From a virus, in IMG/VR virus record IMGVR_UViG_3300021475_000014, positions 1 through 61,535 of that record: a DNA stretch of 61,535 nucleotides; one strand, written 5' to 3'. Each line of letters opens with the position of its first letter. Position 1 is the first letter of the stretch. Shown piece by piece: positions 2,586 to 54,905 of this stretch. The position numbers and the translations under genes were made by a program. The notes under the pieces were generated by a model, which was given only the letters and a program-made list of their open reading frames with translations, was not told the DNA's origin and made no database searches.

Positions 2586-3115
2586 GGGCCACACTCGACA
2601 CAATCGCGGCCAGCATGTACCTCGCATGGCAAATCCGCGGTGAAGATGATCGGCGCATCGTCGTTGGGCGGCAACGACTTCGCCTCCGCCACGAGGCGGT
2701 ACGCGGTGCTGGTCGACACGCCCGCCATCTCGGCGATGGCCGCCACCCCGCCGGCCGCGTACAGCTCCATCACGTCGATGCCGGGGTGCAGCCGTAGCCG
2801 TCCCGGCGGCCGGCCCGGGGTACGCAGCACACCCGCCCGCAGGATCACCAACGTGGCGGTGCCGACCGCAACCCGGTAGGTGCGGGCCACGTCCGGGATG
2901 GACAGTCCGGTGGCGTAGGAGTTGAGGATTCCCTGCCGGACGCTTTCGTCCAGGTAGGACGGCACCAGATCGATGCCAGCCTCGGCGAGGACCCGGTCAA
3001 CCCGGGTACGGCTCACCCGAGCCAGCCGGGCCAGCCGGGTACGGCTGTAGTCACCGCGCCGGTACAGCGCCAGGATCTCGTCGTTGGACAGTGCCGCCAC
3101 TCGGGGACCAGCCAT
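2582..3115 (-). CDS. Helix-turn-helix DNA-binding protein
   Basis: 177 residues from ATG at 3115, preceded by the strong site GGGAGGTG. Three HTH-like units can be read: near residues 10-45 (LYRRGDYSRTRLARLARVSR), 60-95 (ATGLSIPDVARTYRVAVGTA) and 115-150 (LYAAGGVAAIAEMAGVSTST), each resembling resolvase or RNA-polymerase sigma-type HTH. The C-terminus ends with a CEVHAGRDCVEC pair. It heads the minus operon to 142, and copy A of the phage 15-mer (3133-3147) lies just upstream, so it is a candidate regulator, perhaps of itself. Confidence 0.75.
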   Translation of the reverse strand: MAGPRVAALSNDEILALYRRGDYSRTRLARLARVSRTRVDRVLAEAGIDLVPSYLDESVRQGILNSYATGLSIPDVARTYRVAVGTATLVILRAGVLRTPGRPPGRLRLHPGIDVMELYAAGGVAAIAEMAGVSTSTAYRLVAEAKSLPPNDDAPIIFTADLPCEVHAGRDCVECGP

Positions 3116-3132
3116 GACTACACCTCCCGGAT

Positions 3133-3147
3133 AGGTGCGGGGAAAGT
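3133..3147 (+). promoter_or_regulatory. Phage 15-mer operator-like site A
   Basis: Exact AGGTGCGGGGAAAGT on the plus strand, in the divergent interval between the HTH gene and the gene at 3318. A possible -10 (TAACTT) for the HTH gene overlaps it on the minus strand. One of nine copies in the window. Confidence 0.75.
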
Positions 3148-3317
3148 TAGCGATGACGGACACTCTTACACGCGGTGGCGACAGAATCCGAGCCAATCAG
3201 CGAAGTTGACACGATGAGGAAATGGGCCGTCACCTCACGGCACCCACGATCGGTTAGGCCCGGTGCGCAGTACTCTCGGGCGAAGTCGGCACAGTTCACA
3301 GGCGGAGGTGGGGTGCG

Positions 3318-50136: not shown

Positions 50137-50169
50137 GGCCCCCGCCGACATGTCCAGTCGGCGGGGGCC
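50137..50169. terminator. Perfect 13-bp hairpin
   Basis: GGCCCCCGCCGAC (50137-50149), 7-base loop, complement 50157-50169, then TTT on the plus strand. Separates the tRNA-like locus from the ribbon-helix-helix gene. Confidence 0.75.
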
Positions 50170-50280
50170 TTTAGTAGGTGATTCCACGAGGGCGTACAGA
50201 GCCCTTTGCTGGACGGTTTAGTAGACCGTTGCAATCCGTGGTGCCAGCGCACGTTTAAGGTCCAGGTCAGATTCAGAGTG

Positions 50281-50352
50281 CATCGTGCTCTGCCGCTGAG
50301 CTACAGAGCCATGTTTGGAGGCTCCGGCGGGATTTGAACCCGCGTCCCGATG
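50281..50352 (-). tRNA. Circularly permuted tRNA-like gene (3' half before 5' half)
   Basis: Read on the minus strand. First the 3' half: CATCG (anticodon stem), GGAC, T arm GCGGG-TTCAAAT-CCCGC, acceptor CGGAGCC, T and CCA (50352-50316). Then AACAT, then the 5' half: acceptor GGCTCTG, TA, D arm GCTC-AGCGGCA-GAGC, A and CGATG (50310-50281). GGCTCTG pairs with CGGAGCC (one G-U) and CGATG with CATCG, so the halves belong to one cloverleaf. The anticodon loop is interrupted and the anticodon cannot be assigned. Alternatives: junction of two tandem host tRNA genes, or an attachment core. Confidence 0.6.
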
Positions 50353-50535
50353 TACATTGCCTGTTCCGGTCGATCTGGCATTCAGTTGTGACACTGAGCT
50401 TCGAGCGAGAAATTCAGCTTGATCGGCGCGGGCGCAACACTGCGCGTTTGCCGACTGAGTCTCACCTTCAACTTCAGCTTGGCCGCCCTCCCGATTCGGA
50501 GTCAGACGGCCGCCCCGCGCTCGTCGCGGGGAGTC
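50353..50535. other. Noncoding interval flanking the tRNA-like locus
   Basis: No gene. A hairpin CCCCGCG/CGCGGGG (50513-50531) closes the 50536-51267 gene on the minus strand. A hairpin GCGCA-GTGT-TGCGC lies near 50437-50450. A weak likeness to a group I intron core (GGCCAAGC...GAAGGTGAGACT, minus strand, 50453-50484) is discussed under rejected items. Confidence 0.5.
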
Positions 50536-51267
50536 TCAGGCGAACAGGTAGTCCGCGATGACGGCGCCGATATGCACGTCGGTGATCTCGGCTTCGTTGG
50601 CCAACTCGCGGGCCATCTTCACCGCGTCCCGCAGCTTCGTCACCCGCTCCAGCATGGCGCGGCGATCCGACTCCGGCATGGCACCGGAAAAGCGGGTCGT
50701 GTTCCAGGTGCCCACGATGACGTCCTCGTAGTAGACCTGCACCTGCGCGGCGTGCTTCTCCGTTGCCGGGGCCAGCACGTGGTTGCGCGGCACCTTTGTG
50801 GTCCGGGTCGTCTGCACCGTGTCCGAGGCGTAATGCCCGGCCGCGTCGGAATAGCTCCAGTTGATGGCCGGGTCCAGCACCGGCAGCTTGCCGACGAACG
50901 TGTGCAGATCCGCGAGCTGCTTCTCCAGGAACAGCAGCGTCGGCACCGGCAAGGCCGTCAGCACCACTTCGCCGTCCACGACGACGTTGGCGCTCGCGTA
51001 GGTGTTGGCAGCGTCCAGGCTGGCCTGGACGTCCAGCAGCCGCGTCAATGCCTTCGCCACGTAGGTGGTGGCGTCCTGCGCCGTGTACTGCACCTTGGTC
51101 GACTCCGACGGGAGTCGGTCCCCTTCGTCGTCACGCGGCTGGTACTCCCGGGCAAGCCCGTTGAGCAGCGGCGTCTTCTGTACCTGGTGGTAGGCGTCGG
51201 TGATCGCGCGCTGCGCGTCCGCCTTCGCCCCCTTGCTCACTGCGATGAGCTGATTGAGCTTCGTCAT
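50536..51267 (-). CDS. Conserved actinobacterial protein of unknown function
   Basis: 243 residues starting MTKLNQLIAVSKGAKADAQR. LPVPTLLFLEKQLADLHTFV, KLPVLDPAINW, TTKVPRNHVLAPATEKHAAQ and VYYEDVIVGTWNTTRFSGAM belong to a well-conserved family that I know from many actinobacterial genomes and phages (I believe DUF7873), role unknown. Own promoter (TAGGCT at 51306-51311, TTACCT at 51329-51334, 17-base spacer) and 15-mer copy I, so probably a moron expressed by itself. Confidence 0.75.
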   Translation of the reverse strand: MTKLNQLIAVSKGAKADAQRAITDAYHQVQKTPLLNGLAREYQPRDDEGDRLPSESTKVQYTAQDATTYVAKALTRLLDVQASLDAANTYASANVVVDGEVVLTALPVPTLLFLEKQLADLHTFVGKLPVLDPAINWSYSDAAGHYASDTVQTTRTTKVPRNHVLAPATEKHAAQVQVYYEDVIVGTWNTTRFSGAMPESDRRAMLERVTKLRDAVKMARELANEAEITDVHIGAVIADYLFA

Positions 51268-51453: not shown

Positions 51454-52815
51454 TCAGGCGGTGAGTCTACGCGCCTGCCACTCGTAGGTGCGTTGACGGA
51501 TTTCCGGAAGATCCACCAGCATGGGCTCCAGCACGGCCAGGATCTTCAACCATGTTTCTTCGGTGAGGTGGGTATAAATCCGCGTGACCTTTGAACCCTC
51601 ATTTTCGGGTTCCGATGTCTGGCTCGCTTTCCCGATGTGTCCAACAGCCAGGCCGGCGATACTCGCAGCGAACCCATTGGCCTGCAATAGCGTTACGTAG
51701 CTGTGCCGGAGGTTGTGGTGGGTATAGGTTCGGTCAGCAAAAACCGGATCGGTATCGTGGAGCATCTCGACAAGTGTTTTCCATCGCGCATTGTCGACAC
51801 TGGCAATCCATCGGCCGAGAAATCCAAATCGTGGGCCAGTGAAGACTAGGGCACTCTTTGGCTTGTCCTTGCAGAGGATACGCAGCAGATCCATGATCTG
51901 TTGTGGCAGACGGGTGTAGCGGGTAATTGGCGAACCGGGCTTGGAACCCTTCAGGCCCAGCACCGGCTGGTCAGCACTGTAACGGCGATCCAAGAATATC
52001 CGGCCCCGCTTGAAGTCCACTTGGCCAACCGTGAGCGCGGTGATCTCCCCAAAGCGGCAGCCGCTGAATGCTGTCGTCACTACCATGTCGGCCCATTGTG
52101 GGTCGGTCGTATATGCTGCCTTGATGAATTGCTCGTATTCGGCCTGATTGAAGAACACGTCCTTTTCGTCGTCCTCGTTCTTTCTTGGTATCGCGCGTCG
52201 CTTAATTTCGGTCATGGGCGATGCCCAGCGTCGGAGCGGTTCGTTGCCCCCGGTGGGGTCCGATGCCGTAGAAGTGCACCATTTGAACAGGGTCGACATT
52301 ATGGTGATGGCGTGGTTCAAGCTGGCATTAGATACCGTTCCGGGCCGCCGGTCCCGACGCGGTCGATCTGCCTGCGCGCGCAGCCATTCTCGGATCGCGT
52401 TGGGCATGACCGTGGCCACGTCAGCCTCGGCCAGCGCTGTGCCAGCCAGGTAGTTGCGTTCTGTTGATCGATACCCGTCCATCGTTCGAGCTTCGGGGCT
52501 CTGTTCAGACACTGTCTCCAGCCATGTCAGCCACATCTTCATGGCCTGGCCAACGGTCACGACGCTGGGACTTGGTGAGGCCGCACGGGGACCAGCGGCG
52601 GCAGGGTCGAGTAGACCGCGCCGGATGAGTTCTTCATCGGATGGGCACATATTGTTGCCCCGGCCGCCTACCTCTACCAACTTCTTGAACAGCAACGCTT
52701 TGGCCCGATTGTGGAAGGACCGGGCTTGTTGCCCCGGCTTGCCCTTTTCTCGCCACTGGATCTTGTATGTCTTGCTGCCGTCTTTGTTGACGATCTCCGT
52801 GGGATTGCTCGCCAT
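51454..52815 (-). CDS. int: Tyrosine integrase
   Basis: 453 residues. N-terminal arm-binding part (YKIQWREKGKPGQQARSFHN), core-binding helices, then the catalytic domain: Arg in AFSGCRFGEITALT, the His-x-x-Arg box THHNLRHSYVTLL, VGHIGKAS, and the nucleophile Tyr in TRIYTHLTEETW near the C-terminus. It would integrate the phage at a host site, often a tRNA gene. AAAGG precedes ATG 52815. Downstream terminator at 51381. Confidence 0.93.
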   Translation of the reverse strand: MASNPTEIVNKDGSKTYKIQWREKGKPGQQARSFHNRAKALLFKKLVEVGGRGNNMCPSDEELIRRGLLDPAAAGPRAASPSPSVVTVGQAMKMWLTWLETVSEQSPEARTMDGYRSTERNYLAGTALAEADVATVMPNAIREWLRAQADRPRRDRRPGTVSNASLNHAITIMSTLFKWCTSTASDPTGGNEPLRRWASPMTEIKRRAIPRKNEDDEKDVFFNQAEYEQFIKAAYTTDPQWADMVVTTAFSGCRFGEITALTVGQVDFKRGRIFLDRRYSADQPVLGLKGSKPGSPITRYTRLPQQIMDLLRILCKDKPKSALVFTGPRFGFLGRWIASVDNARWKTLVEMLHDTDPVFADRTYTHHNLRHSYVTLLQANGFAASIAGLAVGHIGKASQTSEPENEGSKVTRIYTHLTEETWLKILAVLEPMLVDLPEIRQRTYEWQARRLTA

Positions 52816-53676: not shown

Positions 53677-54009
53677 TCAGAAATCGTGGGTGCAGTACAC
53701 GCACGAGTAGATCCGGCCGGTGGGGACGAACCAGCTCCGCACCCACCCGATGACGCTGTCGACTTTCCCGGTGACCCCGAGCGCCGGCAGCCAGGGAGCG
53801 TGCCGCAGGCCGTACAGCAGGCAGTGCCATTCAGTTGCCCGGTGGGCGCGTCGCAGGGCCGCCTTGGTGTCATAGAGGTGGCCACATTCCCGGCAGGCCA
53901 GGAAACCCCGATGGCGGGGGTATTCGTCTACGTGGTGCCAGAAACAGTGCACGTACGCGCAGTCGTCATGCGCGTCGTGTCGCAGGGTGCGGTTCAGCCT
54001 GTGGGTCAT
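53677..54009 (-). CDS. Cysteine/histidine-rich protein, 110 aa
   Basis: MTHRLNRTLRHDAHDDCAYV, then CRECGHLY and CVYCTHDF; probably two zinc sites around a more hydrophobic middle (LLYGLRHAPWLPALGV). ATGA overlap with the recombinase fragment gene. Such proteins are common beside actinophage lysogeny genes; role unknown. Confidence 0.65.
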   Translation of the reverse strand: MTHRLNRTLRHDAHDDCAYVHCFWHHVDEYPRHRGFLACRECGHLYDTKAALRRAHRATEWHCLLYGLRHAPWLPALGVTGKVDSVIGWVRSWFVPTGRIYSCVYCTHDF

Positions 54010-54905
54010 CGCCAAGAGAATTCGAGCCTGTCTGGATCTATACCGCCGCCAGGGTAGCGCCCCAACTTCGCTGCCGGCTTCACCGTCACGGTGGCGAGTA
54101 GAAAATCGAGGATTCCTCGCCGCTGCTCCACCAGGGCGACATCCCACCAGCGGGCCAAGGCGACCGGGGTCAGGTTCACGATGTCGTTGAAATGGTCGCT
54201 CATATCTGCGGCCCGCGCGAGTTCGGCCTCCACTAAATCGCGCTGGGAGACAAGGTTGCGTATGGTCTCCGGTTCATCGCCATTTTGGTTCGCGGCGGTG
54301 ACTGCCGCAACGAGCGTGCGCAGCCGCGCAGGGCCATTCAGCTTCAGCTCCAGGCCACGGACAATGGCCTTCCGCGTACTCGGCAGCGCGATCCGGGCGA
54401 GTGCCTGTGCGGTCACCTCGAACTCCACACCGTTGGCCGCGATACGTACCCGGCCACAACCCATGGCTGGTGGTCGCTGGTCGCAGGCATAGGTGTGGGA
54501 ATGCTGCGCCGGCACGGTTTTCGGCATCAACGCCGTGCCGCACAGCCCGCAGGTCAGGAATCCGCCACTGAGTAGATGCCGTGGCCGGCCGGTACTGCGG
54601 TGCGCTTGGCGTGCCGGGTCATCCAGAACAGCGCTGACTTTGCGCCAGGTCGCCTCGGCCAGGATCGGTGGATAGCGGGTTTCCCGCACGCCGGTGGGTA
54701 GGCCGGCGATACGCGGGTTACGCAGAATTAGGCGGACCGTTGAGGGCGCCCATTGCCCGCCCTGCGCGGTGGCCACGGCCCGGCGGTGAAGGTCGGCGGT
54801 GATGGTCCAGAGCGTTTCACCGAGCAGTATGCGGTCGGCGAGTTCGCGGATGATGGCCGCTTCCCGTTCCACTACCTGGTTCTTGTCGTAACCGTATGCA
54901 CGCAA
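54006..54905 (-). pseudogene. C-terminal part of a large serine recombinase
   Basis: 299 residues. WTITADLHRRAVATAQGGQW, then PSTVRLILRNPRIAGL is the recombinase domain; GGFLTCGLCGTALMPK...TYACDQ is the zinc ribbon; a coiled region (DLVEAELARAADMSDHFNDI) follows. The N-terminal catalytic resolvase domain with its serine is absent and an in-frame TGA closes the frame just upstream of the TTG start. Either a decayed integrase or a DNA-binding remnant kept for another use. Confidence 0.8.

Follow-up and report, generated by a model that had tools for sequence, protein, structure and literature searches.

A DUF7873-linked structured RNA with circularly permuted tRNA-like modules in phages and actinobacteria

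The IMG/VR viral contig IMGVR_UViG_3300021475_000014, here called the window, is a linear stretch of 61,535 bases which carries genes for a terminase, a portal protein, a major head protein, a primase and a tyrosine integrase. On its minus strand, to which all RNA coordinates below refer, positions 50281-50352 hold a transfer RNA (tRNA)-like module with its parts in permuted order, namely an anticodon-stem-like helix, a T arm, an acceptor-like hairpin and a D arm. The RNA that bears this module, called module B in the following, lies directly downstream of a minus-strand gene for a DUF7873 protein (PF25283; 50536-51267; Pfam E=8.4e-97). In our analysis module B is one part of a conserved structured noncoding RNA, probably about 350-400 nucleotides long, which together with DUF7873 makes up a unit of two genes. 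The module opens with CATCG (50352-50348) and GGAC, followed by the T arm GCGGG-TTCAAAT-CCCGC (50327-50343). The acceptor-like hairpin CGGAGCC-TCCAAACAT-GGCTCTG (50304-50326) comes next; its strands (50326-50320 and 50310-50304) enclose a loop of nine nucleotides, TCCA plus AACAT (50319-50311), which contains T73 and CCA. After TA follows the D arm GCTC-AGCGGCA-GAGC (50287-50301), and the module closes with A and CGATG (50285-50281). The initial annotation had described a minus-strand tRNA-like gene with permuted halves and a 5-base spacer, which is exactly what the sequence reads, and all seven acceptor pairs (one of them G-U) and five anticodon-stem pairs that it counted across the halves are present. 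Its boundaries enclose a real feature that is only part of the conserved RNA, which spans from about 50511 to 50137.

The probable extent of the whole RNA (50137-50511) was derived from an alignment of 58 loci and from fold energy, and its ends are tentatively placed by conserved end hairpins. At the 5' end the hairpin GGCCGTC...GGGCGGCC (50481-50511) has counterparts of different sequence in the same position in relatives. It is followed by the site of module A (50423-50454), where most relatives carry a first permuted tRNA-like module and the window has a plain hairpin, TCGGC...GCCGA. The window form thus has an intact module B and a module A shrunk to a hairpin, and does not show the two modules that are a frequent but not a defining trait of the RNA (122 of 171 DUF7873 loci). 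Between the two sites lies a conserved stretch, CTGAATTTC-TCGCTC-GAAGCTCAG (50394-50417), for which the pairing was drawn by eye and differs from the computed fold of the 375-nucleotide RNA stretch. Its six-base motif recurs as TCGCTC or TTGCTC in 93 of the 122 two-module loci. Module B stands on two covarying core helices. The 5' strand of core helix 1, ATGCCAG (50375-50381), pairs with 50241-50247 (alignment columns 219-225/382-388), and that of core helix 2 (50360-50367) with 50259-50266 (columns 233-241/361-370). The conserved internal-loop strand TTAAACG and the 3' strand of core helix 1 together occupy 50241-50258, and TTAAAY is found in 99 of the 122 two-module loci. The RNA ends with the hairpin GGCCCCCGCCGAC-TGGACAT-GTCGGCGGGGGCC (50137-50169; columns ~467-516), which has no U-run after it and whose TGGAYA-like loop is seen again in many relatives.

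Covariation in the 58-sequence alignment supports this structure. RNAalifold predicted 48 consensus pairs, 40 of them with compensatory double changes, which cover the T stem and acceptor hairpin of module A, the three helices of module B (T arm, columns 261-277; acceptor-like hairpin, columns 278-284/316-322; D arm, columns 325-328/337-340) and the two core helices beneath it. In the acceptor-like hairpin both sides of a pair were changed in up to 29 of 58 sequences. Across loci, the acceptor strands were paired at all seven positions in 97-98% of modules compared to 4-11% when partners were swapped between loci. MAFFT misaligns the anticodon-stem-like helix, and this helix was therefore tested by partner swapping as well; at least five base pairs formed in 75-81% of modules compared to 32-42% after the swap. 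The 375-nucleotide window stretch folds with z=-3.93, and none of 100 shuffled sequences was as stable. The fold energy of the core of module B alone is ordinary (z=-1.26), and the structural claim therefore rests on covariation. The acceptor stems vary freely in sequence, and the G3-U70 pair is rare (11 of 244 modules). The loop that joins the acceptor strands is mostly 4-10 nucleotides long in genomes, and 220 of 244 modules have N73-C74 at its beginning; a pyrimidine at position 75 is common and a complete CCA occurs in about a third. Moreover, each module has its own constant discriminator, which is A73 for module A and U73 for module B.

The RNA is strictly linked to DUF7873. The 171 loci analyzed comprise 91 viral loci, from phages or viral contigs, and 80 bacterial ones; database loci were chosen by DUF7873 similarity and are the best 80 of 84 and the best 80 of 346, the latter being the number of genome stretches which encode DUF7873 relatives. 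Modules were detected as a T arm, a 7-nucleotide acceptor strand, a loop, a pairing acceptor strand and a D arm, located at most 900 nucleotides downstream of DUF7873. At least one module was present in 165 loci (85 of 91 viral, 80 of 80 bacterial), and at least two were present in 54 viral and 68 bacterial loci. As controls, a search of the opposite strand gave a match in 1 of the 171 stretches, and the stretch upstream of DUF7873 gave 10 matches, all viral, which we attribute to phage tRNA arrays. The spacing between the modules is tight (median 114 nucleotides for genomes, 120 for viruses), and modules A and B each have a distinct type of D arm. Four actinophages, Phendrix, Mimi, NiceHouse and Guey18, have two tandem permuted modules in the gap that follows DUF7873, together with conserved blocks in common with the window; in Phendrix, Mimi and NiceHouse DUF7873 also lies near tRNA genes. 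In the tRNA array of the Gordonia phage Phendrix (L126, 1087-1615) we also observed a transfer-messenger RNA (tmRNA) gene (Rfam, 89 bits) that is apparently unannotated.

A covariance model of the core and module B, R1, was built from 36 relatives with the window excluded and has 142 positions and 31 pairs. It matched the window over its full length at 50383-50239 with 105.6 bits (E=6.6e-24, R1 E-values being rough), and the next-best site scored 9.5 bits. The initial annotation had judged the pairing across the halves hard to obtain by chance. The R1 match bears this out for the RNA in the window, but the bare motif is uncommon rather than impossible, as the loose module detector gave 10 matches in 1.19 Mb of reverse strand. 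For three of the six loci missed by the detector (L221, L197 and L207) R1 located the RNA 1 kb downstream of DUF7873, on the opposite strand or just upstream. Therefore, the RNA is more than the 3' end of the DUF7873 message. In a sample of 296 Actinomycetota genomes, drawn evenly and independently of DUF7873, the gene was found in six, and R1 scored above 60 bits in exactly those six, a few hundred bases from DUF7873. None of the 290 genomes without DUF7873 reached this score, the highest value being 54.1 bits. The weak matches followed up in such genomes were tandem identical tRNAs (L303, L304) and a locus with Ro and YrlA RNA (L302). At L303 and L304, identical tRNA genes follow each other in tandem, and their junctions reach about 33-38 bits with the Rfam model of YrlA and about 45-48 bits with R1. 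Such junctions mimic the module, and searches for permuted tRNAs must therefore exclude them.

The DUF7873 product has 243 amino acids when started from the ATG at 51267; a longer open reading frame extends to 51435. With regard to the TROVE ring and vWA domains of Ro60 proteins, Pfam yields DUF7873 alone for this protein, and its confident AlphaFold model consists of helices and beta hairpins (predicted local distance difference test, pLDDT, 93.9; predicted template modelling score, pTM, 0.68). Foldseek searches of the model against PDB and BFVD gave no match at E<=0.001, and comparison of the sequence with PDB gave nothing credible. With VIA-align the top hit was 3kdq (Z 8.3), a protein of unknown function, which is not interpretable. 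DUF7873 was found neither in PADLOC nor in NCBIfam, nor was it mentioned in the open papers searched.

Few tRNA mimics are known from bacteria, namely tmRNA and the Y RNAs bound by Ro. Among the latter, YrlA (RF02553) is a partner of the Ro60 orthologue Rsr, and a member of this family is expected to bind Ro/Rsr, and also PNPase, in vivo. YrlA consists of a Ro-binding stem and a tRNA-like domain (PMC8394870), and in the crystal structure it can be superposed on tRNA only via circular permutation (PMC11472068, PDB 6CU1). The window RNA has the same architecture, a permuted tRNA-like module on a basal stem. In both, a T arm, an acceptor-like hairpin and a D arm are carried by a basal stem that has two parts and an internal loop. 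Two adjacent modules are frequent in both, and both occur in phages and bacteria. A YrlA-like fold therefore explains the permuted order without circularisation. However, the partner of the window RNA is DUF7873 instead of Ro, and the core motifs differ. Moreover, the actinobacterial DUF7873 RNA, unlike YrlA, is one conserved unit with two fixed and distinct modules, fixed spacing and end hairpins. Common descent with the Y RNAs is nevertheless quite possible because the architecture is so alike, and R1 matched a Ro-linked Shinella RNA over its full length with 53 bits. BLAST searches of phages and plasmids with the module returned mostly unannotated spots adjoining genes for Ro-like or RNA-binding proteins and RtcB. 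As positive controls, TROVE domains were found in three of these neighbour proteins (L002, L005 and L007) and also beside L302. The RNAs at the matched spots next to Ro genes are YrlA-type Y RNAs. At L302 (2453-2777), in a genome without DUF7873, two sub-threshold YrlA modules accompany the TROVE gene, which suggests that the Rfam YrlA model misses actinobacterial Y RNAs.

It could accordingly be asked whether the window RNA is itself a genuine YrlA Y RNA, with a Ro gene beyond the ends of the incomplete contig. The order of stem, T arm, acceptor hairpin and D arm is the same, similar RNAs adjoin Ro genes elsewhere in phages and genomes, and the contig is linear with open reading frames running off its ends. 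In a permissive Rfam search the window also matched the full YrlA model with 30 bits (E=2.3e-4). This is, however, far below the gathering threshold of 69 bits, and all DUF7873-linked relatives scanned fell between 27 and 37 bits. Besides, no TROVE gene was detected in the window at E<=10, the partner conserved across the 171 loci is DUF7873, and the core GATCGACC / CTTAAACG is unlike the YrlA consensus. We therefore regard this explanation as improbable. It is very unlikely that the feature is a permuted tRNA gene whose product becomes functional after circularisation, a type known from red and green algae, or that it is a natural permuted arrangement of intron and exon. The complete tRNA elbow and acceptor, the occasional CCA and the order of the parts recall algal permuted genes (PMC3978253), but the anticodon-stem-like helix runs into the conserved core instead of a U33-NNN-R37 loop, and this core is conserved far beyond any tRNA. 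The known cases depend on a bulge-helix-bulge (BHB) motif and the tRNA-splicing endonuclease of archaea and eukaryotes (PMC3978253). In the initial annotation such a gene was thought to need splicing or circularisation; this need falls away, as the halves sit on conserved helices that are not of tRNA type and have no anticodon loop. The short acceptor-joining loop, the optional CCA and the recurrence of the module beside DUF7873 in phages and chromosomes also speak against a tRNA gene. When the halves were joined in tRNA order, ARAGORN reported tRNAs at many joints with inconsistent and incompatible anticodons.

The annotation had offered capture of a tandem host tRNA junction or an attachment core as alternatives, and these are the least credible of the explanations considered. 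In their favour, there is a tyrosine integrase gene 1.1 kb upstream of the module, and identical tandem tRNA junctions, as at L303 and L304, do mimic it. In the window itself, however, neither ARAGORN nor Rfam at gathering thresholds detected a normal tRNA, so that flanking tRNA halves are missing. A 31-nucleotide pattern of the 3' half with up to three mismatches had no match in the 296 Actinomycetota genomes, in which no tRNA end similar to this half was found, and an exact 26-nucleotide search of viral contigs, made with an attachment site in mind, gave none. Moreover, the core helices and the DUF7873 linkage recur in phages and chromosomes irrespective of integrases. A natural permuted group I intron was also considered and rejected, with no Rfam intron match and with flanks that by eye are not recognisable as intron halves.

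Most likely, the RNA would act as a Y-RNA-like scaffold in which DUF7873 replaces Ro. Each module imitates the upper half of a tRNA in circularly permuted form, with the elbow, the acceptor stem and both the T and the D arm, and hangs from the conserved basal stem through the anticodon-stem-like helix as in YrlA. DUF7873 may bind the conserved core, in the place that Ro takes on Y RNAs. The tRNA-like arm has no anticodon but retains the T and D loops, of which the tRNA elbow is made. It could then recruit an enzyme or particle that reads the tRNA elbow or acceptor end, for instance ribonuclease (RNase) P, an exonuclease or an enzyme of tRNA modification, resulting in a tethered ribonucleoprotein. 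The 3' ends of tRNAs pair with RNase P RNA. Because N73-C74-Y75 would fit this pairing, RNase P is the natural first candidate, either as partner or as processing enzyme.

Several observations weigh against a DUF7873-bound scaffold. The predicted fold of DUF7873 has neither a confident structural match nor a recognised RNA-binding domain, and the basis for the putative binding is its linkage to the RNA. The loci beyond actinobacteria and their phages, among them those of Vibrio, Klebsiella, Rhizobium and a cyanophage, are divergent, and for most of them the R1 match is confined to the module part. In addition, the conserved C74, the pyrimidine 75 and the constant discriminators may point to processing into a tRNA-like end, for which a pure scaffold would have no need. 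These features would rather be expected if the acceptor loop were cut, by RNase P on the 5' side and by RNase Z or trimming on the 3' side, to give a nicked and possibly aminoacylated RNA ending in CCA, similar to two-piece tmRNA. We consider this doubtful, as loops can be as short as four nucleotides, most modules lack CCA, the acceptor stems are variable, G3-U70, the mark of alanine tRNA and tmRNA, is rare, and the module has neither a reading frame nor an anticodon. Combining both ideas, a DUF7873 ribonucleoprotein, widespread in actinobacteria and phages, might present two tRNA-mimic arms of different type. Cleavage of their acceptor loops would expose CCA ends, and the resulting nicked, circularly permuted tRNA-like molecules would be charged or otherwise engage translation or tRNA processing; this, too, is a tentative idea that we hold to be unlikely.

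The DUF7873-linked RNA was also compared with other systems. Permuted two-piece tmRNA (RF04321 / RF00023) likewise has the T arm and acceptor 3' strand ahead of the acceptor 5' strand and resembles only the top half of a tRNA. Unlike tmRNA, the module has a complete D arm, no mRNA-like tag frame was found in it and G3-U70 is not conserved; the tmRNA match at the window was sub-threshold with 13 bits. GOLLD and ROOL RNAs have often been described near tRNA genes in phage genomes. They are large structured noncoding RNAs as well (PMC12286853), but permuted tRNA modules are the hallmark of the DUF7873-linked RNA, and no GOLLD or ROOL match was obtained with Rfam at the loci scanned. In algae and Thermofilum, circularly permuted tRNA genes also have the 3' half in front and a short spacer (PMC3978253). 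Unlike these, the module has no anticodon, stands on a conserved core, occurs in bacteria and phages and depends on no known splicing machinery.

The DUF7873-linked RNA is apparently undescribed, in that neither Rfam 15 nor the open papers searched contain it, and it appears to be a third, as yet unnamed family of bacterial tRNA mimics with its own protein partner. The family is common to phages of very different hosts and to the chromosomes of many actinobacteria. Mimicry of tRNA through circular permutation is thus not bound to Ro, and DUF7873 gains a testable RNA partner, which points to an RNA-protein machine.

The family would also account for some odd tRNA calls in phages. In the Klebsiella phage Centimanus (L136) an annotated tRNA-Stop(tta) at 3013-3096 overlaps module B (R1 match 3051-3169) and is therefore probably a false call. 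Similar overlaps were seen with YrlA modules beside Ro, namely for tRNA-Arg of the Gordonia phage VanLee (gp125; L007, 958-1029; Rfam 998-1061) and tRNA-Thr of prophiGD43A-5 (L005, 1291-1369; Rfam 1313-1412). Both annotations may thus reflect fragments of Y RNAs that were mistaken for tRNAs. The Arthrobacter plasmid NZ_CP084558.1 (L006, 1371-1601) carries two tandem permuted modules, the second of which scores 57.8 bits with R1. Neither Ro nor DUF7873 is annotated nearby, and a tblastn search with DUF7873 gave no match on the plasmid.

Just upstream of DUF7873 in the window lies the tyrosine integrase gene (51454-52815, minus strand; PF00589 E=5.9e-6, slightly below the Pfam cut-off), which provides context only and stands outside the RNA system. 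As a guide to related phages its relatives were of little use, with none in viral contigs and only distant ones in phages. A serine-recombinase fragment at 54006-54905, in which only Recombinase and zinc-ribbon domains were found, is unrelated to this integrase.
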